Notes under the pieces: model-generated
Databases searched by the model: none
What the model was told of the DNA's origin: nothing
What the model saw: only the letters and a program-made list of their open reading frames with translations
Part shown: positions 10,308-64,000 of the stretch, one piece after another
Numbering within the stretch: position 1 is the first letter of the stretch
Layout of the letters: each line of letters starts with the position of its first letter
Translations under genes and position numbers: made by a program
Assembly (NCBI RefSeq): GCF_003595525.1
Contig: NZ_CP022680.1
Coordinates: 1,762,001 to 1,826,000, forward strand
DNA: 64,000 nt
From: Streptococcus respiraculi
Lineage (GTDB): Bacteria; Bacillota; Bacilli; Lactobacillales; Streptococcaceae
Direction of reading: 5' to 3'

Positions 10308-10820
10308 ATTTGTAAAATCAATTCTCTGGGCCAATCGGTCAATGACCAGAGATCCTACGATGAGGGAGGCGAATTCTCCTACAGCAGTTGTAAACCATGT
10401 TGCTAAGAAAGGGGTGCTTGCTAGAAAATACAATTCAAGAGCAATGGTAAACATGGATAAAGAAAAGAAGATAGAAAAGTAGAAAAATGCTTTATTGATT
10501 ATCCCATTGAAGAGATACTCTTTTTGATATTTTTTAAAGAAATAAACACCTAGTGCTACAAAGACGAGGGTCGACCCTCCACCGACAAAAACATCAATCA
10601 CTCCAAATCCAATGAAATTCGAAATCATACAGCCAATCGTAACAGCAATAAGATATTTACGATTATAAAAGGCTAAAAAATTCAGCATTTCTGACAAACG
10701 GAACTGATAGGCTCCGTAGGAAATCGCATTGAGAGGTGGCGTTACTGTTAACACCACGTAAATCGCCGCAACTAAGGCAATGTGTGCCATGTCACGAACT
10801 GTCCATTTTGTTTGATTCAT
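10305..10820 (-). CDS. queT: QueT family queuosine-precursor transporter
   Basis: 171 aa. This is a small polytopic membrane protein of the QueT family (COG4708), the substrate-binding S component of an ECF-type transporter thought to import preQ1 or another queuosine precursor. The N-terminal ALVAAIYVVLTVTPPLNAIS helix and the RLSEMLNFLAFYNRKY segment are typical. A preQ1-II riboswitch in its leader directly supports the substrate class. The ECF module genes are not nearby. Confidence 0.9.
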   Translation of the reverse strand: MNQTKWTVRDMAHIALVAAIYVVLTVTPPLNAISYGAYQFRLSEMLNFLAFYNRKYLIAVTIGCMISNFIGFGVIDVFVGGGSTLVFVALGVYFFKKYQKEYLFNGIINKAFFYFSIFFSLSMFTIALELYFLASTPFLATWFTTAVGEFASLIVGSLVIDRLAQRIDFTN

Positions 10821-10823
10821 ATA

Positions 10824-10884
10824 AGACTCCTTTGGCGGCTAAACCGCGTGTAATATGCTTGGCTAAAGGAAGGAAGTGCCAAGG
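10824..10884 (-). promoter_or_regulatory. preQ1-II (COG4708) riboswitch controlling queT
   Basis: On the minus strand CTTGGC (10883-10878) pairs with GCCAAG (10863-10858), followed by the conserved CATATTACACGCGG segment, a GCGGTTTAGCCGC hairpin and CAAAGGAG, then the queT ATG. This is the expected order and sequence of the preQ1-II aptamer, in which the ribosome-binding site is occluded on ligand binding. Confidence 0.9.
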
Positions 10885-10889
10885 GTTGC

Positions 10890-11290
10890 TAAGATGAGAG
10901 GCTGTTGAAAAGTCTCCGCAAAATTAGGACGGTGAGCGCTGGTTCGATGAACCTAGCGAAAACGGACCCCTAAAGGGAGCCAAATCTGTAGGCAGCTAAA
11001 GCCACAACACCTTTGTCTCTATTTTGCAAGACTTTTAGCACGAACTCGATTCACAGGATGTGAAGTCGTGGAAAAACCGAATGTACTCAAGAGCATCCAT
11101 ATCCGTAATGCGAGCAAAGCTCACAACGGCTACAGCAAAAATAGGGGATTGACCGTCGAATCAGTAATTCGAGGACAAGACATCTTTTTTCCGAGGTTTT
11201 AGGCTGAACTCAGTTCAATAAGATGTGAAGCCGTGGAAAAACCGAATGTACTCAAGAGCATCCGTTTTTTCGGCCAAGGGCTTCTCATTT
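10890..11290. repeat. Composite intergenic repeat region between queT and gtrA
   Basis: This is 400 bp of non-coding sequence. Two copies of a roughly 57-bp segment (about 11051-11107 and 11217-11272) share GTGGAAAAACCGAATGTACT and CAAGAGCATCC. Other parts (CCCCTAAAGGGAGCC; CTTTTTTCCGAG then TTTTAG) resemble stretches at 1-240 and 24060-24400. Many short hairpins with AAA loops are present. Confidence 0.7.
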
Positions 11291-54784: not shown

Positions 54785-56188
54785 CTATCTCTCAAAACCG
54801 TTATTTTGACTCAATTCTTTAAACCAATGACCTGACTTTTTGATCGTCCGCTCTTGGGTCTCTAGATTCAGTTCAATTAGACCATAGCGATTCTTATAAG
54901 CATTGAGCCAAGACCAACAATCGATAAAGGTCCAGAGCATATATCCCTTACAGTTAGCCCCAGCCTCTATCGCCTTGTGGAGCTCCACCAAATGGTCGGC
55001 GATAAAGTCGATTCGATAGTCATCTTGAATGGCTCCATTTTCACGGAACTTATCCTCTCCTTCGACCCCCATACCATTTTCAGTGACGAGCCATTCGATA
55101 TTGCCGTAATGCTCCTTGAGGTTGATACCAATGTCGTAAATGCCTTTTTCATAGATTTCCCAGCCACGGTGCGGATTAATTTTCTTTCCAGGCATGTCGT
55201 AAGGCTCGTAGTAATAATGCGGTGTCAAAGGCTCGTCTTCACTTGGTTGAGTGCTTCTAGCTTGCACGCGCATAGGTTGATAGTAGTTGACTCCTAGGAA
55301 ATCAACCGTGTTTTCCTTGATGATGTGGAGTTCCTCCTCGGTTGCTGGAGGTAAAATCTCATGTTTCTTTAAGATGTCCAGCAATTCAGGTGGGTAAACA
55401 CCTAGAACAGATGGATCTAGAAAACTCTTGGTTTGGAACAATTCAGCAATCCGCGCAGCATCTTGGTCTTCTTTGCTGTCACTGCGTGGATAGGCTGGAG
55501 TCAAATTCAAGACAATGCAAATCCGGTGGTCTGGATGTGTTTCATGACAGGCCTTGACAGCTAATGAGCTTGCCAACTGCGTATGATAGGCCACTAAGGC
55601 AGCCGCTTTTGCATCGACCACACCAGGCAGATGAAAGTCTCCCAAATACCCACATTCGACAGGAACAATTGGCTCATTAAAGGTAATCCAAGTGTCTACG
55701 ATATCACCAAACAAGTCAAAACAGGTTCTAGCATAGCGCTCATAAGCATAGACCGTCTCCTTGTTTTCCCAGCCGCCACGCTCCTGAAGAGCGTATGGTA
55801 AATCAAAATGATAAAGATTGACAATTAGCTTGATTCCCTCATCCACAATATCTTGAAACACCTGACGGTAGAAAGCAACTGCCTGCTCGTTGACCTTACC
55901 TGTTCCGTCTGCAATCAAACGTGACCACTGAATGGAAGTCCGAAAGACCGTATGCCCCGTTTCTTTCAAGAGTTTAATATCTTCTTTGTAATGCTGGTAG
56001 AAGGTAGAGGTATTTTCAGGACCTACTTGATCAAAAAAGCGTTCTGGCTCCCTTTCATACCAAGCGTCCCAGTTGCTTTTGGTCTTACCATCTCCTGCTA
56101 CAATCCCCTCACTTTGGGGACCAGAGGTGGAGCTTCCCCACAGGAAACCTTCTGGAAAATGGTAAACTGTTTTTGCTGTATCTGACAT
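54785..56188 (-). CDS. GH1 6-phospho-beta-glucosidase/glycosidase
   Basis: 467 aa from the ATG at 56188 (AAAGGAG upstream). It hydrolyses 6-phospho-beta-glycosides imported by PTS. N-terminal FPEGFLWGSSTSGPQSEG, acid/base Glu172 in TFNEPIVP, nucleophile Glu370 in VTENGMG. 8 nt separate it from the mupG-like gene. The promoter carries a cre-like site. Confidence 0.9.
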   Translation of the reverse strand: MSDTAKTVYHFPEGFLWGSSTSGPQSEGIVAGDGKTKSNWDAWYEREPERFFDQVGPENTSTFYQHYKEDIKLLKETGHTVFRTSIQWSRLIADGTGKVNEQAVAFYRQVFQDIVDEGIKLIVNLYHFDLPYALQERGGWENKETVYAYERYARTCFDLFGDIVDTWITFNEPIVPVECGYLGDFHLPGVVDAKAAALVAYHTQLASSLAVKACHETHPDHRICIVLNLTPAYPRSDSKEDQDAARIAELFQTKSFLDPSVLGVYPPELLDILKKHEILPPATEEELHIIKENTVDFLGVNYYQPMRVQARSTQPSEDEPLTPHYYYEPYDMPGKKINPHRGWEIYEKGIYDIGINLKEHYGNIEWLVTENGMGVEGEDKFRENGAIQDDYRIDFIADHLVELHKAIEAGANCKGYMLWTFIDCWSWLNAYKNRYGLIELNLETQERTIKKSGHWFKELSQNNGFER

Positions 56189-56219
56189 AATTTCTCCTTT
56201 TGCACCTGTTTTTAACTCT

Positions 56220-56257
56220 AGTATAATCCTCCCAGTCACTCCTGTAAATGCTTTCAA
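56220..56257 (-). promoter_or_regulatory. Promoter with cre-like site upstream of the GH1 gene
   Basis: Minus-strand TTTACA-17-TATACT. TTGAAAGCATTTACA (56257-56243) matches the CcpA cre consensus WTGNAANCGNWNNCW except for A in place of G in the central CG, and overlaps the -35. Repression by CcpA is expected. Confidence 0.6.
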
Positions 56258-56293
56258 AAAAGATATTTTTCCACATTCTTAAGGAAAATGACT

Positions 56294-56330
56294 AAAAAAG
56301 AGTGAAACAGTCGCTGCTGTCTCACTCTTT
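56294..56330 (-). terminator. Terminator of the heterodimeric ABC exporter operon
   Basis: Minus-strand AAAGAGTGA-ACAG pairs with CTGTTTCACTCTTT, followed by TTTAG, about 100 nt beyond the last ABC gene. Confidence 0.75.
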
Positions 56331-56361
56331 GGTCTCTTGAGGCCTTATTCAATCCTCTCTA

Positions 56362-56417
56362 AGAACCTGTACTTATAAGCTCCCGATTAGAGTTGCTGAG
56401 TTGTGAATAGAGATTCT
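56362..56417. repeat. Inverted-repeat element (family S), copy 3
   Basis: AGAACCTGTACTTATAAGC on the left and TTGCTGAGTTGTGAATAGAGATTCT on the right (in two parts) correspond to copies at 4189 and 33582, but the inverted repeats are less perfect here. Confidence 0.7.
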
Positions 56418-56428
56418 AAAATTGGCTC

Positions 56429-58171
56429 TTAGCCCACTTTCTGCTGAATGGCTTGCATTTGAGCGTAGATACCCCCAAGGGCAAGAAGCTCCTCATGGTT
56501 TCCTCGTTCAACAATTTGCCCCTTATCCAAGACTAAAATCTGATCAGCATTTTGAATGGTGGATAGTCTGTGAGCGATGATAAAGGTTGTCCGTCCTTCT
56601 TTCACGACTTCCATGGCATGCTGGATGATTTCTTCTGTCTCTGTATCAATGTGCGACGTCGCTTCATCTAAAATCAAAATCTTCGGATCTGAGTAGAGAG
56701 TACGAGCAAAGGCAATCAACTGTCGCTCCCCACTTGAAAAGGCTGCTCCCTTTTCAACAACAGGCTCGTCAATCCCCTTTTCAAGCCGTCCTAGTAAGTC
56801 CATAGCTCCGACCTTCTCAAGAGCTTCTAGAATCTTCTTGCGATCCATGTCTTCCTCATTCATGCTGACATTGGTCGCAATGGTCCCTGTAAAGAGATAA
56901 GGGTCTTGGAGGACAATCCCCATGTGACTGCGGACACTTTCTCGTCGATAGTCTCTAATATCTTGTCCATCAATCTGGACACTTCCTTGTTGCGGATCAT
57001 AAAAGCGATAGAGCAAGTTCATAATGGAGGTCTTGCCTGATCCGGTATGACCAACAAGGGCAATGGTCTCGCCCTTTTCTACCTCAAAGGAAATATCCTT
57101 CAAAATGGGCTTTCCTTCTTCGTAGGCGAATTGGACTCGATCAAAGACCACTCGACCGTCTGTTACGATAAGACTTTCATCACTATCGTCTTCGACGGGC
57201 TCTTCCAACAAGGCTAACAAGCGTTTTCCTGTCTCCAAGGAACGCAGCATATTAGGAAACTGCTGTACCAAGCGCCCCATAGCATCAAAGACATCTGTAA
57301 TATAGTTGATATAGACAAAGAGGATACCAGCTGTCAACTGCCATTGACCTCCTAGGAAACGCTGACCGACAACCGTTAGGACCAAGGTGATGACCAAGTA
57401 TTTGATGAGTTCTGTCATGTTCCAAGTCGCAATCGATTGGGCCCAGATGATTCGATTTTCCGACCGCTTCATCTTGTTAGCTGTCTCTTCAAAATCTTCC
57501 ATAACCGCTTCTTCCTGACCATAGAGCTGAATCAAGCTTGCCCCATTCATGGATTCATTGACCTTGGTATTGAGGTCGCTTCTTGCATCATAAAAGTCTT
57601 TCATGGGTTGATCCGTCAAGCGTTTGTAGAAGACCTGCAAAGCATAAAAAGCTGGTAGAAGCGCAAGTAAGACCACACCTAGAATCGCATTCATATGGAA
57701 AATAATCCCGTAGGTAAAGAGCAAGCGCACCACGTTATTAAAAATATAGACCAAGGTTGCATAAAACTGATTGCGAAGGGTCTCCGTATCGTTGACAATC
57801 CGTGTGGCAATCTTTCCTGCTGGCTTATCATCAAAATAAGAAATCGGCAAGCGCTGCATGCGGTCATAAGCACGATTGCGCAAGGTTTCTGCAATCCGAT
57901 TGGCACAATGCATCAAGATACGGGTTGAGAGATACAGAAAGAGGCCACCCACAAGATTCAATCCCAGATAAGCCGCTAATTGCAGAAGAAACCCAGCCTG
58001 ATCAAAGGGCAAACCCTTGCTCAAATCCGTTACTGGACCGTCAATAATTCGCTGTAGGAGAATCGGCGATAGCCGCACCAAGGTCGATGCCCCTAGATAG
58101 ATGAGAACACCTAGCACAAACAAGCCTGTAACACGGCGAATTTCTTTTAATAGGGTAATCAGTACTCTCAT
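56429..58171 (-). CDS. ABC exporter half-transporter, catalytic subunit (BmrD/YheH-like)
   Basis: 580 aa: six-helix exporter domain fused to an ATPase. Walker A GHTGSGKTS, signature FSSGERQLIAFAR (degenerate relative to LSGGQ), Walker B LILDEATSHID with catalytic Glu, H-loop IAHRLS. It overlaps the partner gene by 4 nt (ATGA). The pair resembles B. subtilis BmrCD/YheIH multidrug exporters. The deviant signature together with the partner's missing Glu indicates one consensus and one degenerate ATP site. Confidence 0.88.
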   Translation of the reverse strand: MRVLITLLKEIRRVTGLFVLGVLIYLGASTLVRLSPILLQRIIDGPVTDLSKGLPFDQAGFLLQLAAYLGLNLVGGLFLYLSTRILMHCANRIAETLRNRAYDRMQRLPISYFDDKPAGKIATRIVNDTETLRNQFYATLVYIFNNVVRLLFTYGIIFHMNAILGVVLLALLPAFYALQVFYKRLTDQPMKDFYDARSDLNTKVNESMNGASLIQLYGQEEAVMEDFEETANKMKRSENRIIWAQSIATWNMTELIKYLVITLVLTVVGQRFLGGQWQLTAGILFVYINYITDVFDAMGRLVQQFPNMLRSLETGKRLLALLEEPVEDDSDESLIVTDGRVVFDRVQFAYEEGKPILKDISFEVEKGETIALVGHTGSGKTSIMNLLYRFYDPQQGSVQIDGQDIRDYRRESVRSHMGIVLQDPYLFTGTIATNVSMNEEDMDRKKILEALEKVGAMDLLGRLEKGIDEPVVEKGAAFSSGERQLIAFARTLYSDPKILILDEATSHIDTETEEIIQHAMEVVKEGRTTFIIAHRLSTIQNADQILVLDKGQIVERGNHEELLALGGIYAQMQAIQQKVG

Positions 58172-59901
58172 TCTTCTCCTCCTTCCTGACTTTGCTGACG
58201 TTGGTACTGCTCATAGTACCAGCCTTCTTGGGCTAGGAGCTTTTCTGGTGTCCCTTCTTCAACGATGCGTCCGTCTTCTAAGACCAAAACCCAATCCGCA
58301 TGATGCACAGCAGATAGGCGGTGAGTCACGATGATATTGGTCTTGCCCTTTCGTTCCCGCTGGATATTTTCGATAATTTGACGCTCCGTTCGCGCATCCA
58401 CCGCTGAGAGTGAATCATCTAAGATGAGTAGGTCTGGCTTACGCAAGAAGGCACGGGCAATGGAAATCCGTTGCTTTTGGCCACCTGAAATCGACACCCC
58501 GCGCTCCCCAATCGTGGTCTCGATTCCTTCAGACATCCGCTCCAAGTCCTTAGTAAAGTCTGCTGTCTCAATCGCCTGCACTATCTCATCTAGCTGACTA
58601 TCCCCTTTTCCAAGGGCAATATTTTCTCGAACCGTTTTCGAAAATAAAACGTGCTCTTGAGGTACATAGCCAATCTTCTGCTCAATTGAAGTCCGTTTGA
58701 AAGCCAGTACCGATTGTCCATTGAAGGTAAATGTTCCACTGCCGATTGGGTATTGCCGCAAGAACTGCCGAATCAAGGTAGTCTTCCCTGAACCTGTTTT
58801 TCCAACAATACCGACTGTCTGACCAGCCTTCAAGGTCCACGAAATATCTGTCAAACTATTGCGCTCTGCCTGCGGATAGGAAAAATCGTAGTGCTCAAAG
58901 GATATCTCGCCTAAGTCTGCCAACCACTCATCTCCGTCTTCTTCCATATCATCACCCGTATCAATCAGCTCCTGCAATTTGGCAAAAGAAGTCTTTCCAG
59001 TTTGGTAGACAAAAATAAAATCTGACAGCATCCAAAAGGGTTCTAAGAGTGATACCGTGTAGAGTTGTAGGGCAATGACTTGGCCGAGCGACACCTGGGA
59101 ACGTTCTAGGAAAACAGCTCCTAACCATAAAATAGCAATGATGGAAACCCCTAATAAAATAGTGCTTAGCGGATTGTACAAGGCTTGAAAGGCCATGATT
59201 GTATCCCCGCCACGCGCAAGCGCTCGGGTCCGCTCCTGAAACTTGCGTTCCTGCCGTTCTTTCTTGCTGTAGGCCCGTGTGACACGGATCCCTTCGACTA
59301 CTTCTAGAACCTCGTCATTTAAACCAGCAACCGCTTCTCGGTTGGCCTCGACCGCCTGATTCTGCCATTTTCCAATGACATAAATCGCCGCAACCAAGGC
59401 CACCATCGGAATCAAAGCTCCAAGGCTAATCTGCCACGAAATGAAAAACATGGTCGGAACGATAAAGGCAATCATTCCACCTGCATAGACCACAATCATG
59501 AGCCCGTAGCCCACCATGTCCATTAAACCTTCCACGTCCGTTGAAAAGCGCGTCATCACATCACCCGAACGAAATTTCTCATAGAATGGCGTCCGCATTA
59601 CGACTAGCTTACGAAATGAACGCTGCTGCATATCAAATTTAAACTGCACCGATGACTGAAACAGCTTCAAATGCCAAATATAGGCCATCACATAGGTCAA
59701 AATGGTCACTCCGAGCAACAGCAGCATGTCCTGCATCAAGCCCGCTCTAGTCAAGTTCTCCTGACCAATCTTGTCCACCAACCCCTGAATAATCTTGGTC
59801 GGTATCAACAAACACGCATCATAAACAATCAAGCTAATTGCAACCAACAAGTACAGCCACTTGTGTTGCTTTACGTACTGAATAATTAGCCCTATCATCA
59901 T
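58168..59901 (-). CDS. ABC exporter half-transporter, degenerate subunit (BmrC/YheI-like)
   Basis: 577 aa; the start may be either of two adjacent ATGs after GGAGG. Six-helix domain (QYVKQHKWLYLLVAISLIVY first), Walker A GKTGSGKTT, canonical signature SISGGQKQRISIAR, but Walker B reads LLILDDSLSAVDA with Asp in place of the catalytic Glu, as in BmrC/YheI. First structural gene of a two-gene operon transcribed from about 60230 through a leader ORF and an intrinsic terminator. Drug export is inferred from family. Confidence 0.88.
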   Translation of the reverse strand: MMIGLIIQYVKQHKWLYLLVAISLIVYDACLLIPTKIIQGLVDKIGQENLTRAGLMQDMLLLLGVTILTYVMAYIWHLKLFQSSVQFKFDMQQRSFRKLVVMRTPFYEKFRSGDVMTRFSTDVEGLMDMVGYGLMIVVYAGGMIAFIVPTMFFISWQISLGALIPMVALVAAIYVIGKWQNQAVEANREAVAGLNDEVLEVVEGIRVTRAYSKKERQERKFQERTRALARGGDTIMAFQALYNPLSTILLGVSIIAILWLGAVFLERSQVSLGQVIALQLYTVSLLEPFWMLSDFIFVYQTGKTSFAKLQELIDTGDDMEEDGDEWLADLGEISFEHYDFSYPQAERNSLTDISWTLKAGQTVGIVGKTGSGKTTLIRQFLRQYPIGSGTFTFNGQSVLAFKRTSIEQKIGYVPQEHVLFSKTVRENIALGKGDSQLDEIVQAIETADFTKDLERMSEGIETTIGERGVSISGGQKQRISIARAFLRKPDLLILDDSLSAVDARTERQIIENIQRERKGKTNIIVTHRLSAVHHADWVLVLEDGRIVEEGTPEKLLAQEGWYYEQYQRQQSQEGGEE

Positions 59902-59949
59902 CTCCTCCTTAAAACCCTATCATCACCCAATCTTTATTTAATAGTAAAT

Positions 59950-60030
59950 TGGATAAAGGTTAGGACATTGTTCAGTCGCTTTGATGAACACCAGTTCTAG
60001 CTGCAACTACTTGCCTTGTCCTATTAATCC
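59950..60030. repeat. Dispersed repeat, second copy of the 23985-24060 segment
   Basis: GGTTAGGACATTGTTCAGTC and CGCTTTGATGAACACCAGTT match the region downstream of polA with scattered differences, ending CTTGCCTTGTCCTATTAATC. It lies inside the leader of the ABC exporter mRNA between the attenuator and the first gene. Confidence 0.7.
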
Positions 60031-60075
60031 ACTATAATAGACTATAAATTAAACCGAAGTGACTAAAAAGCACAC

Positions 60076-60109
60076 AAAAAACCCGAGATAGAATTGCTCC
60101 ATCCCGAGT
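60076..60109 (-). terminator. Leader terminator (attenuator) of the ABC exporter operon
   Basis: RNA ACUCGGGAUGGAG (60109-60097) pairs over all 13 positions, including G-U pairs, with UUCUAUCUCGGGU (60093-60081) around a UUG-complement CAA loop, then U6. Only the minus-strand RNA pairs well. It lies 175 nt before the first structural gene. Confidence 0.8.
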
Positions 60110-60131
60110 CCCTCAAGTCCACAAAAAGACA

Positions 60132-60200
60132 CTAAGACCGATACTTAGAAAGGAGCCTATTCTGAAAAATAGTATTGTTAACTACTACATTGTTGTTCAT
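60132..60200 (-). CDS. Putative 22-aa leader peptide of the ABC exporter operon
   Basis: ATG at 60200, stop TAG at 60134-60132, with AAAGGAG 7 nt upstream, an excellent ribosome-binding site. The peptide begins MNNNVVVNNT and ends LLSKYRS. It lies between a strong promoter and an intrinsic terminator, the arrangement of drug-responsive attenuators such as B. subtilis bmrB ahead of bmrCD. Codons 13-17 carry AGAATAGGCTCC, complementary to GGAGCAATTCT in the terminator, so ribosome position could select between structures. I do not know a homologue of the peptide. Confidence 0.65.
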   Translation of the reverse strand: MNNNVVVNNTIFQNRLLSKYRS

Positions 60201-60235
60201 TGTTGTTCTCCTTTCATTTGTTCTATATACGTACC

Positions 60236-60263
60236 ATTCTAACAGAATATTTAAGGATGTCAA
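60236..60263 (-). promoter_or_regulatory. Promoter of the leader peptide-ABC exporter operon
   Basis: Minus-strand TTGACA (60263-60258), 16-nt spacer, TAGAAT (60241-60236) with extended TGT. Start of transcription near 60229, about 30 nt before the leader ATG. Confidence 0.75.
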
Positions 60264-60344
60264 GAAATACTCGGATTTTTTGGAAAATAATTTTTGGGCG
60301 GGACAAGCAAGAAGAAGTCAGGAAAGGCCCAACTTCTCTCTAGC

Positions 60345-61622
60345 TTATTTTTGTAAGGCTTTGATACGGCTCGTTACACCTTTTAGATTGTAACACTCAG
60401 CATAATCTCGAATCGGACGCTTAATGTGGTCAATGACATAACGCTTCCCGTCAATATGATAGGTTGCTAAATTAGCATATAGTTTCTCGATTTGTTCCTT
60501 GACCGCTGCATCATTAAAGGTATAATGACCTGCTATATCTAGAATTTCTTCTTGCAACTCCTGATTGCCCCCTGCTAAGATTTGCTCAACTGTCAAATCT
60601 TTCTGGTCTCCCATCATCCACTTTCTCCAACGCTCACTTTTAATGGCATGCAGAAGAAGGGTTTGACGAATTGTTGACGGCTCAGCAATTAAGCCTTGCG
60701 CAACTAATTTCTCTTCTACTTTTCCTAGATTGAGATAAGCCCGTGTCTCTTCCGTACCATATTGAGGTGCTACATTTGTTGCAGTAATCGCTGACGGGAT
60801 GTGTTCTAACAGAGTAACATCATCTAGATAGTCCCCATTATGCTCTTTCAAGCCAACACCATATTTCTTAGCCATCTGCGCCAAATCATAGGCGTTCTGG
60901 AAATTAAAGTGCCCTACTTGTTCTGTCTTACGCGTCAAAGTCCCTGTCTGACCAACAATAAAGGTTGGCATTGGCAATTGGCGTTTGCCTAGTTCTTCCT
61001 GTAACTGTTGAATAAAGGTCTCATAGGTCTCTGTAGAAGTCAAACCACCGTTTGTTTCCTCTGTTCCAACTTCGTAGCCAATTTCTGGCAATCCGCGTTT
61101 TTTGCGTTCCTCTTCACAAAAGGCAATCAAGTCAACAGTCCGCTCCAACACGACCTCAAGCGGAATCACTTTTCCAACTTCAAAAGGATCCTTTGTCGGA
61201 TCAATCATTAGCAAGTCAAAACCTGCTTCAATATCTCCTACGTAAGATTGCTGACCTAAGCGCATGGCCTCCTCTACTGGTAAATGGTCATTTCTCTCTT
61301 TATCCCGTTGCCAAGGACCACCATGATCTCGGCAAAGATAATACAGATTATTATAGCCAATCTCTTCAGCCACTTCTTCTACAGCTTTTGCAAAGCTAAA
61401 CTGATTCCAACCATTGACATATCCTCCGCCTAACTCATCCAAATCAACCTGATTGCGGCTGGCGATAAACATGACAGGATAGTCATCTTCTTTGGATAAT
61501 TCAAGCGTTGCTTGGACACAATTGCGAGACATAGGACCAATCCCTAGTAAAGTAGCGGATTCTCCCTTATTTTGCAAGTCCAACAAGCCTTCTACGACCG
61601 ATTTAATAGATAATTTCGACAT
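60345..61622 (-). CDS. GatZ/KbaZ-like D-tagatose-bisphosphate aldolase non-catalytic subunit family
   Basis: 425 aa. Sequence of the GatZ/KbaZ family (LGIGPMSRNCVQATLELSKE; LYYLCRDHGGPWQRD; EVGTEETNGGLTS; VGLKEHNGDYLDD). In enteric bacteria GatZ supports the class II aldolase GatY/KbaY; no GatY-like gene is present in the window. Here it follows fructose-type PTS genes, so it probably acts in catabolism of the imported hexose or hexitol phosphate. Some members may have independent enzyme activity. Confidence 0.82.
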   Translation of the reverse strand: MSKLSIKSVVEGLLDLQNKGESATLLGIGPMSRNCVQATLELSKEDDYPVMFIASRNQVDLDELGGGYVNGWNQFSFAKAVEEVAEEIGYNNLYYLCRDHGGPWQRDKERNDHLPVEEAMRLGQQSYVGDIEAGFDLLMIDPTKDPFEVGKVIPLEVVLERTVDLIAFCEEERKKRGLPEIGYEVGTEETNGGLTSTETYETFIQQLQEELGKRQLPMPTFIVGQTGTLTRKTEQVGHFNFQNAYDLAQMAKKYGVGLKEHNGDYLDDVTLLEHIPSAITATNVAPQYGTEETRAYLNLGKVEEKLVAQGLIAEPSTIRQTLLLHAIKSERWRKWMMGDQKDLTVEQILAGGNQELQEEILDIAGHYTFNDAAVKEQIEKLYANLATYHIDGKRYVIDHIKRPIRDYAECYNLKGVTSRIKALQK

Positions 61623-61632
61623 ATTTCTCTCC

Positions 61633-62679
61633 TTATTTTAATTCTTCATCTGCTAGATTTGGTTTTGTGAAGTGGATAATTGCAACGGATACCAGCGTTC
61701 CAATCAGCATGGCAAGAAAATACCACAATTTCCCATTGACGACAGGCAGAATAATCAAACCTCCATGCGGTACAAGGGCTTCTACATTGTTAATCATGCC
61801 CAAGGCACCACCAACAGCACTACCGATGATAATGGCTGGCAAGACCCGTTTCATATCTTTTACAGCAAATGGAATCGCACCTTCTGTAATTCCAATGAGC
61901 CCCATAAAGAAAGCGGACATTCCCAAATCTCGGTCTTCTTTCGTATATTTTTTTCGGTCAATAAAAGTTGAGATAGCAACTGCAAGCGGTGGAATCGCTA
62001 CAGCAATCCGGTGAGCCCCATTTGGAGCATAGATTCCTTCTGCCATCAGAGCTAGTGTAAAGGCTGTCGCTGTCTTATTGATTGGACCTCCCATATCGAC
62101 AGCAGTCATTGCTCCGATAATGAGACCAAGCACAATGGCACTACCACCTTGCAATTCACCTAAAGTAGCTACTAGCCAGGTCATCGCAGCACCAATCGGA
62201 ACAGAAATGACATAAATGTAGAGCATTCCCAATAAAAAGACTGTTAGAATCGGAATGATTAAGATGGGCATCAAGGTACGAATAGTCGGTGTTACTTTCC
62301 AAGTTTTACACCATTTTACAAAGTAACCAGTTAATACCCCCAGCAACATAGCTCCTAAAAATCCAGTCTTGACTTGAGCGGATCCGATTGGATTATTGGC
62401 CACATAGCCCAAAATCATCGCAGGTGCAAGAGCAGGCTTTCCAGCAATAGAATAAGCAATATAGCCTGCCAGTAATGGAATCATGATTGAGAATCCCGCC
62501 ACTCCCAAATCCAACAAATCCTGCATGAATTGGCTGCTAACTTCCATTCCTCCTTCGCCAGGTTTTCCTGTTGCTAAGGATAGGGCTATAAAAACTCCAC
62601 CTACGACAACTGATGGCAGCATATATGACACCCCAGTATTAAAGGCTTTTTGCAAGTCTTTCCACAATGTCTTCTCCAT
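61633..62679 (-). CDS. PTS fructose-type EIIC permease
   Basis: 348 aa, about ten membrane segments. FNTGVSYMLPSVVVGGVFIA and the GGPINKTATAFTLALMAEGI region are diagnostic of the fructose/mannitol IIC family. Works with the separate IIB and IIA encoded just upstream. 10 nt separate it from the GatZ-like gene. Confidence 0.9.
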   Translation of the reverse strand: MEKTLWKDLQKAFNTGVSYMLPSVVVGGVFIALSLATGKPGEGGMEVSSQFMQDLLDLGVAGFSIMIPLLAGYIAYSIAGKPALAPAMILGYVANNPIGSAQVKTGFLGAMLLGVLTGYFVKWCKTWKVTPTIRTLMPILIIPILTVFLLGMLYIYVISVPIGAAMTWLVATLGELQGGSAIVLGLIIGAMTAVDMGGPINKTATAFTLALMAEGIYAPNGAHRIAVAIPPLAVAISTFIDRKKYTKEDRDLGMSAFFMGLIGITEGAIPFAVKDMKRVLPAIIIGSAVGGALGMINNVEALVPHGGLIILPVVNGKLWYFLAMLIGTLVSVAIIHFTKPNLADEELK

Positions 62680-62699
62680 TTTTTTCTCCTTTCGTCCTT

Positions 62700-63014
62700 C
62701 TATAGTGCTTCTGCTTGATCAACAACCTTATCAGGATGACGGATGGCCTCACCTGGATCAACCAGCAACACCTTGCCTTCATCACGCTTGTCATCAAAGC
62801 GATCCTGACCTTCAATTTCAACTGCAATAGCTAAAATCACAACATCGGCTTGGTCAATCTGCTCTTGCTCCAATTCCTGCTCGATTCCCATGCCTCCTTG
62901 TGTCTCCACTTGGACCTCATATCCTCGTTTACGACACTCTTTTTCAATGGCTTCTTGAGCCATATATGTATGAGCGATACCTGTCGGACAGGCTGTTACA
63001 GCAACGACTTTCAT
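62700..63014 (-). CDS. PTS fructose-type EIIB
   Basis: 104 aa. The phosphocysteine is Cys9 in TACPTGIAHTYMAQEA, the fructose IIB signature; continues with VETQGGMGIEQELEQEQIDQ. Spaced 11 nt from IIA and 20 nt from IIC in the same operon. Confidence 0.93.
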   Translation of the reverse strand: MKVVAVTACPTGIAHTYMAQEAIEKECRKRGYEVQVETQGGMGIEQELEQEQIDQADVVILAIAVEIEGQDRFDDKRDEGKVLLVDPGEAIRHPDKVVDQAEAL

Positions 63015-63025
63015 AAAAATTCCTC

Positions 63026-63490
63026 CTAAATGTCTATCGAACGCAATCGTTCGAAAAGAGTTGTTTTGTTTCCAATGGTTAGTAGTTGATGACGAAAGTC
63101 TTCATCTAGCAATTTTTTACTTACTTGCGAAATAAATCGTAAATGTAATTTTTCCGTTCCAGCATTAGGAACTCCGATGAGAAAGATAAGTTGGACAGCC
63201 TCTTCGTGCCCTTGTGTCCACTTAAACGGCTCACTTGTTCTTAGAAAAGCGATAAACGGTTTTTCAACGACATCCGCTTTCCCATGCGGAATGGCAATTC
63301 CATATCCAATCGCTGTCGGCACTTCTTCTTCACGTGCTAGCACAGCGTTCATAAATAAATCAACATCTGTCACATATCCCAGCTGACATGCTTGATTTGT
63401 AATCGCTTGAATCACCTCTTTTTTCGTTACAAGCTCCTCATCCATAAAAATCAATTCTTCATGTATAATATTATGCTCTTTCATATACAA
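63026..63490 (-). CDS. PTS fructose-type EIIA
   Basis: 154 aa. PTS EIIA type-2 fold with phosphorylated His69 in GYGIAIPHGKADVV. The start overlaps the regulator stop by 20 nt; the ATG at codon 3 is an alternative start. Confidence 0.92.
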   Translation of the reverse strand: MYMKEHNIIHEELIFMDEELVTKKEVIQAITNQACQLGYVTDVDLFMNAVLAREEEVPTAIGYGIAIPHGKADVVEKPFIAFLRTSEPFKWTQGHEEAVQLIFLIGVPNAGTEKLHLRFISQVSKKLLDEDFRHQLLTIGNKTTLFERLRSIDI

Positions 63491-64000
63491 TTTTTAAAAC
63501 CTCCGTTCTATTCTTAGCATGGCGCAGGGCAGTTAGCCTCTCATCTGTATTGATCAATTCATAAATTCCAGAAATGATTGATTTGGTTTTGGACATATCC
63601 TTAGGACTAATTCCAATAATAAATATAAGATCCACAAAGTAATCTTTCCACTTAAATTTTTTTGAACTCTTTACAATCGCAACAAATGTTTGCTGAACCT
63701 CTTGCGGTTTTCCATGAGGAATCGCAACTCCAATCGGCAAATCTGTATTACCAAATTCTTCTCGGTCTAACATAGCTTGTCTAAATCCGGGTGTTACAAA
63801 GCCTCTATCTGCTAACATATGACTCAAACTCTTAATAGCATCTGTCGAGGAATGATAGTGTTCATGATAGAAAACCAGTTCCTCTGACAGATAGGGAGCT
63901 AAATTAGCACTTTTCCTCTTAGGACTGATAAGCACTCTAGCTGCATGAGCATTCAGAAGCATCGATAATTCCTGCTCACTAATTAAAGGTGAAACGAAGT
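63471..64000 (-). CDS. PTS-regulated transcriptional regulator, C-terminal part (cut by window end)
   Basis: The frame is open to the right edge (about 176 codons visible), so the ATG at 63962 is internal. The visible part is an EIIA type-2-like domain with LPIGVAIPHGKPQEV (regulatory His) preceded by a linker. The position upstream of and overlapping the IIA gene indicates a BglG/MtlR-type PRD regulator of this fructose-type PTS operon; the DNA-binding and PRD parts lie outside the window. Confidence 0.75.
   Translation of the reverse strand, partial: FVSPLISEQELSMLLNAHAARVLISPKRKSANLAPYLSEELVFYHEHYHSSTDAIKSLSHMLADRGFVTPGFRQAMLDREEFGNTDLPIGVAIPHGKPQEVQQTFVAIVKSSKKFKWKDYFVDLIFIIGISPKDMSKTKSIISGIYELINTDERLTALRHAKNRTEVLKIVYERA

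Follow-up and report, generated by a model that had tools for sequence, protein, structure and literature searches.

A probable ribosome-mediated transcription attenuator, with the leader SD as a predicted switch strand, in front of a Tet(46)-related ABC exporter of Streptococcus respiraculi

The window, the whole 64,000-nucleotide stretch of the Streptococcus respiraculi genome (NZ_CP022680.1) analysed here, carries two ABC half-transporter genes preceded by a promoter, a very short ORF and a terminator, and the question raised by this arrangement is whether the ORF and the terminator together control the exporter, and by what signal. A preliminary description had read the leader as an attenuator with an antiterminator, and had attributed induction by translation inhibitors to an Asn/Val-rich leader peptide. 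Comparison with homologous loci and folding in silico now indicate that a ribosome-mediated transcription attenuator most probably stands in front of the exporter.

The exporter genes and their leader

Table 1. Positions of the exporter genes and of the observed and predicted leader elements in the window.
Feature	Position	Strand	Basis or remark
Promoter, TTGACA-16-TAGAAT, TG before -10	60236..60263	minus	consensus match 11/12
Leader SD, GAAAGGAG; segment 1, putative 5' strand of the anti-antiterminator	60208..60215	minus	pairs with 60155-60147 in the fold
Leader ORF, 22 codons, MNNNVVVNNTIFQNRLLSKYRS, ATG 60200 to TAG 60132	60132..60200	minus	ORF and homologous leaders
Anti-SD, CUCCUUUCU, in codons 16-18; core of segment 2	60147..60155	minus	folding, comparison
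Segment 2, putative 5' strand of the antiterminator: anti-SD core with 60163-60152		minus	leader codons 13-18
Segment 3, GGAGCAAUUCU, SD-like; in 5' arm, loop and 3' arm of the terminator	60090..60100	minus	
Intrinsic terminator, 13-pair stem and U6	60076..60110	minus	
ABC exporter subunit A, BmrC-like, Tet(46) A-like	58168..59901	minus	Walker B LLILDDS
ABC exporter subunit B, BmrD-like, Tet(46) B-like	56429..58171	minus	Walker B ILILDEA

The two half-transporter genes overlap (Table 1). Their best PDB matches are YheI (453 bits, subunit A) and YheH (482 bits, subunit B), the proteins known as BmrC and BmrD, which supports the earlier assignment of a BmrC/BmrD-like pair downstream of the leader. 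The nearest curated family for both subunits is Tet(46), with NCBIfam models NF000474 and NF000475 scoring 819.7 and 808.1 bits; both scores fall below the cut-off of 1250 bits, so the exporter of the window is a relative of Tet(46) and not Tet(46) itself. As read from the sequence, Asp replaces the usual Walker B Glu in subunit A, and subunit B has an altered signature, SSGER. Asymmetric ATP-binding motifs are known from heterodimeric exporters.

The gene upstream of the leader is GatZ/KbaZ-like and ends 145 nt ahead of the leader start. The promoter, the 22-codon ORF with its strong SD and the terminator had been placed correctly, to the base, in the preliminary description. The promoter is joint best among 22 promoter-like sites in positions 55000–64000, but shuffled sequences average 15.1 such sites, so that the match alone is little proof. 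The terminator has a stem at 60110–60080 with a 5-nt loop and several G-U pairs, followed by U6 (60081–60076), and a predicted energy of -16.4 kcal/mol; as the stem begins 21 nt past the leader stop, it lies outside the leader ORF. On its own it is unremarkable, nine terminator-like sites being found against 7.9 expected. The leader as a whole folds far better than its shuffled versions (z = -4.45, with none of 200 shuffles as good). An interspersed repeat of about 90–100 bp (59937–60036, minus strand) separates the terminator from the start of the exporter, and has 41 further matches, some of them partial, in the same genome.

In the predicted fold of the window's leader, the SD forms a hairpin with CUCCUUUC in codons 16–18, and this hairpin coexists with the terminator. 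The same stretch also belongs to the strand pairing with segment 3 in the terminator. The anti-SD is thus shared by both pairings, since it can bind either the genuine SD ahead of it or a GGAG that mimics the SD in the terminator arm. The previously noticed complementarity of 60163–60152 to 60100–60090 is present, split into two blocks of 5 bp by a small internal loop, although in this single sequence it is only modestly above chance, since 3.8% of dinucleotide-shuffled arms reach the -12.9 kcal/mol of the duplex. The earlier reading was therefore right as to the attenuator and the antiterminator, and what it missed was the third arm, the pairing of the SD with the antiterminator strand.

Conservation of the leader in Streptococcus

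The exporter search gave 39 named loci, to which homologues at E ≤ 1e-150 in 50 of 147 Streptococcus genomes were added. Upstream sequence was available for 49 genome loci, and in 47 of these the leader is found no more than 830 nt from the exporter, counted from the end of the retrieved upstream sequence; they include L095, where it is displaced to 668 nt upstream. In L059 the leader lies farther upstream, outside the scanned 800 nt, and is separated from the exporter by an ORF, and L094 (1 of 49 Streptococcus loci) has the exporter but no leader was found. Retention of the exporter by relatives that have lost the leader ORF and the terminator, which would have spoken against the preliminary description, is therefore not the rule. 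Rows left out comprise L017 and L060, whose contig starts inside the gene, L042 (a fragment), and the distant homologues L044 and L047; for L046 the upstream sequence extends over only 287 nt, in which the leader is absent. L090, with SD GAAAGGGG, was included by hand, and the start of L040 was set by hand.

Pooling of the sources gave 56 distinct leaders in 23 clusters, which were formed by leader similarity and do not represent a tree. A terminator follows the ORF in 56 of 56 distinct leaders. The start of the anti-SD lies 20–31 nt ahead of the leader stop in all 23 clusters, and exactly 21 nt ahead in 17 of them. This spacing holds while the terminator sequence, the peptide and the distance from terminator to exporter (27 to 246 nt in the 16 clusters measured) vary across the clusters; the stem begins 11–36 nt past the stop in 21 clusters, and about 125 nt past it in the other two. 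In two relatives of S. cuniculi (L010 and L016) the leader ORF is extended in frame by 12 codons, and L016 has an extra insertion in the 5' UTR.

A strict detector, which looks for an SD, a short ORF, an anti-SD near the ORF end and then a terminator, gives a match in 79 of 84 upstream regions from Streptococcus (a redundant set), against 0/576 windows of 800 nt from elsewhere in these loci and 0/640 dinucleotide shuffles. This comparative result is the decisive evidence for the reality of the leader. A promoter-like match of at least 10/12 precedes 17 of the 23 leader clusters, compared with 74 of 920 shuffled regions; a score of 9/12 was discarded as uninformative, as it is reached by 454/920 shuffled regions. 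The idea of further copies of the layout in the S. respiraculi genome was rejected, as the strict pattern was found there at one site only, which is near-palindromic and matches in both orientations (control, 0). A stricter pattern gave 19 matches in 117 genomes of the family, 13 of them leader-like and 11 with the exporter alongside; the remaining six (G041, G061, G181, G184, G198 and G204) appeared by eye to be chance matches in coding DNA.

Subunit A of the S. australis locus L024 passes the tet(46) cut-off, is 58% identical to subunit A of the window, and is preceded by a leader of the same type. The parasanguinis/australis clade accounts for 15 of the 56 leaders, and has the anti-SD CUUCUCC, 27 nt ahead of the stop. 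A second strong terminator in tandem, about 90 nt past the leader stop, is present in L024, L026 and other loci of the parasanguinis/australis type.

A predicted switch between two pairings of one strand

RNA polymerase would start near 60229 and soon expose the leader SD. Segment 2 would then have a choice of two partners, this SD (segment 1) and the GGAG in the arm of the terminator (segment 3). With no ribosome present, the 1:2 pairing would tend to form and the terminator would end transcription. A ribosome on the start codon or on codons 2–10 would cover or block segment 1 and leave segment 2 free, and the 2:3 pairing could form once the terminator loop emerges, allowing the exporter to be transcribed; a ribosome at the stop codon would mask segment 2, and the terminator would form. 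It follows from this logic that the exporter would be switched on when early translation of the leader slows, the simplest cause of which would be ribosome-binding drugs. Translation inhibitors are thus the presumed inducers of the exporter, the ORF is presumably translated, and a premature 3' end would be expected.

The pairings were assessed by partition-function folding with ribosome-covered stretches masked. The folded transcripts were cut just beyond the loop of the terminator, where the choice between the structures would be made, and an antiterminator was called at three or more expected pairs. For the window, 7.9 SD:anti-SD pairs and 0.4 antiterminator pairs are expected without a ribosome, 0 and 8.8 with a ribosome on the start codon, and 3.8 and 0.4 with a ribosome at the stop. 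A codon scan places the possible antiterminator at P-site codons 1–10, and it is gone by codon 13; SD:anti-SD pairing behind the ribosome, if allowed, competes from codon 7 onward. Masking of the start region gives an antiterminator in all 56 distinct Streptococcus leaders. Without a ribosome, SD:anti-SD pairing is favoured in only 31/56 and the antiterminator is already formed in 27/56, and with the stop masked it persists in 20/56. In these models, terminator, antiterminator and anti-antiterminator behave as mutually exclusive according to ribosome position in the window, and incompletely so across relatives. The parasanguinis/australis clade is the main exception and accounts for much of this misfit to the switch model, so that the off-state in this clade needs another explanation, perhaps the second tandem terminator.

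Predicted segment 2:3 duplexes are stronger with native than with exchanged partners. The swap test on 40 combinations was redone on the 23 clusters because related sequences inflate the result; native pairs then gave -10.66 compared with -9.34 for swapped pairs (sd 0.32), only 1 of 20000 permutations being as good, and duplexes with shuffled arms gave -7.85. Together, the comparative detector and the folding support the earlier proposal of a leader-ORF attenuator with a mutually exclusive antiterminator.

Conserved RNA and divergent peptides

Leader peptides diverge between clusters, as seen for example in MNNNVVVNNTIFQNRLLSKYRS, MKQLLVKTVAFFQQPLLSKLTP and MNMTFFVCRPFMNNLLSKKLH. A recurrent LLS is encoded by the anti-SD itself, read as CTC CTT TCT. 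The anti-SD is in another frame in three of the 56 Streptococcus leaders (L038, L092 and L088), and most anti-SD leaders of other families have a shifted frame, for example ACT CCT TTC or ACT CCT TAT, giving TPF or TPY. Because the anti-SD keeps its spacing even where it lies in another frame, and the peptides are divergent, it is the RNA and not the peptide that is conserved. The special role once given to an Asn/Val-rich peptide finds no support for the same reasons, and sensing of Asn or Val starvation was rejected since the Asn and Val codons are not conserved.

These data also bear on a drug-specific nascent-peptide arrest of the ErmCL type, in which the peptide would sense the drug and stall the ribosome at a defined codon. 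Closely related leaders do retain residues, such as xVFxN before LLSK, and the pooled pN/pS within clusters is about 0.55 from codon 3 to the anti-SD (55 non-independent pairs), a value that agrees with some peptide constraint but suggests a leader peptide that is translated and loosely constrained; that the reading frame is kept is a second, likewise indirect, sign of translation. Across clades, however, only M(N) and the anti-SD-encoded LLS or TPF/TPY are common, the frame changes, and the S. cuniculi relatives carry the longer leader described above, all of which makes peptide arrest unlikely. A ligand-binding riboswitch or a protein-controlled attenuator, neither of which needs translation, would be suited equally well by the terminator and antiterminator alternatives, and the available part of one report ascribes to the related patAB pump a Ribex-predicted attenuator whose signal is unknown (PMC4319486). 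Against this, Rfam at the gathering threshold returns no family at the leader site, and what is conserved is not an aptamer but an SD, an ORF and an anti-SD whose distance from the stop is fixed, so that such a regulator is highly improbable. The sole Rfam match at that threshold is a preQ1-II riboswitch at 10818–10901 on the minus strand. An ordinary terminator, belonging to a short non-coding RNA or to the operon upstream, with the ORF incidental, would fit the near-chance number of terminator-like sites and the nearby end of the upstream gene, but is scarcely credible given the separate promoter between that gene and the ORF and the joint conservation of SD, ORF, anti-SD spacing and terminator before the same exporter.

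On a stronger reading, put at about even odds, the ribosome-mediated attenuator would be independent of the peptide. The SD and its mimic in the terminator would compete for one anti-SD, held at a fixed distance from the leader stop, and the inducing event would simply be that a ribosome, initiating or stalled early, occupies the SD.

Related leaders in other families and orders

At the level of the order, an exporter homologue at E ≤ 1e-125 is present in 103 of 295 genomes and in 29 of 74 genera. The upstream regions taken from these number 44, that is, 43 of the 76 non-Streptococcus matches (mostly the best scoring) and one divergent Streptococcus. A leader ORF with terminator occurs in 34/44, compared with 1/176 shuffles and 4/256 other windows (from Streptococcus loci), and an anti-SD as well in 22/44, a layout found in 0/176 shuffles and 0/256 of those windows. 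By family label, the anti-SD leaders are distributed as f8 10/10, f4 9/19, f3 1/7, f6 1/4, f2 0/3 and Streptococcus 1/1. With the start masked, at least three antiterminator pairs are expected in only 15 of these 22.

For other orders of the class (Bacillales), 22 upstream regions were taken from class-level matches with loci (L191–L212). An ATG leader ORF with terminator was found in 14/22, compared with 0/88 shuffles and 9/220 other windows, and an anti-SD in only one of the 22. The SD-mimic layout was accordingly rejected for Bacillales, where leader ORFs are common but of a different design. From these frequencies across the orders, leader-ORF attenuators seem to be general before BmrC-type exporters, and the SD mimic would be the streptococcal and lactic-acid version. 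The joint proposition, namely a peptide-independent ribosome-position switch with SD occupancy as inducer that is ancient and widely retained before the BmrC-type exporters, among them tet(46), of streptococci, of Enterococcaceae-like bacteria and of related lactic acid bacteria, is put at an even chance.

Comparison with known attenuators

According to the available part of the report on bmrB-bmrCD of Bacillus subtilis (Reilman 2014, PMC4191407), that system has a leader ORF, a terminator, an antiterminator and a predicted anti-antiterminator, and thus resembles the window in having a leader ORF and switch elements before a heterodimeric ABC exporter. It differs in that bmrB has 53 codons and encloses the terminator, compared with 22 codons and a terminator past the stop in the window, and in that the function of its anti-antiterminator is described as unclear, whereas in the window the leader SD itself would be one switch strand. 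In vmlR of B. subtilis, as given in the accessible text of PMC9226507, an antibiotic-stalled ribosome on the uORF blocks the anti-antiterminator and so gives the antiterminator. A ribosome held on a short ORF is likewise proposed for the window, but the vmlR uORF encodes Met-Ile-Asn, its SD is single-stranded before the hairpin, and the controlled gene specifies an ABCF factor and not an exporter. The third case is patA of Streptococcus pneumoniae, for which the consulted part of PMC4319486 gives experimentally supported terminator-based repression of a heterodimeric ABC exporter, and for which Ribex predicts both an antiterminator and an anti-antiterminator; its description sets it apart, with a predicted start only 67 nt upstream and a leader peptide unmentioned. 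Naville and Gautheret had already noted attenuators upstream of ABC genes, among them one for a multidrug exporter of lactobacilli (PMC2965389, in the part available).

In none of bmrB, vmlR and patA, as described in the available text, is the leader SD itself a switch strand, whereas in the window it would be strand 1. No description of a leader of this type was found in the literature searched, whose coverage lacks most subscription journals; none is given in the accessible parts of PMC4997860, PMC7724050, PMC8546594 and PMC4448216, and those of PMC5138185 and PMC12256430 mention no leader for related tetracycline exporters. On these two grounds the layout is called new, and the leader is called, as far as these sources go, the known bmrB/vmlR attenuator logic in a new, widespread layout.

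If the proposed switch is correct, a group of exporters in streptococci and their relatives, including a tetracycline exporter, would be controlled directly by the state of the ribosome through a very short RNA, which would explain pumps that are silent and without phenotype until translation is disturbed. Predicted inducers would be drugs that hold ribosomes at the start or within the first ten codons, and drugs that keep ribosomes off the message would be predicted non-inducers. Since the recurring leaders differ in their peptides but share one RNA logic, they offer a natural series that would be useful for telling peptide sensing from ribosome-position sensing.

In SatAB, as given in the accessible part of PMC9241815, the MarR-type satR gene adjoins the pump; the exporter of the window differs from it in having the GatZ/KbaZ-like gene upstream. 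Another exporter pair in the S. respiraculi genome itself (L005, G000:C1:1990835-1995559) has a frame directly upstream that was judged MarR-like by eye, in a satRAB-like order.
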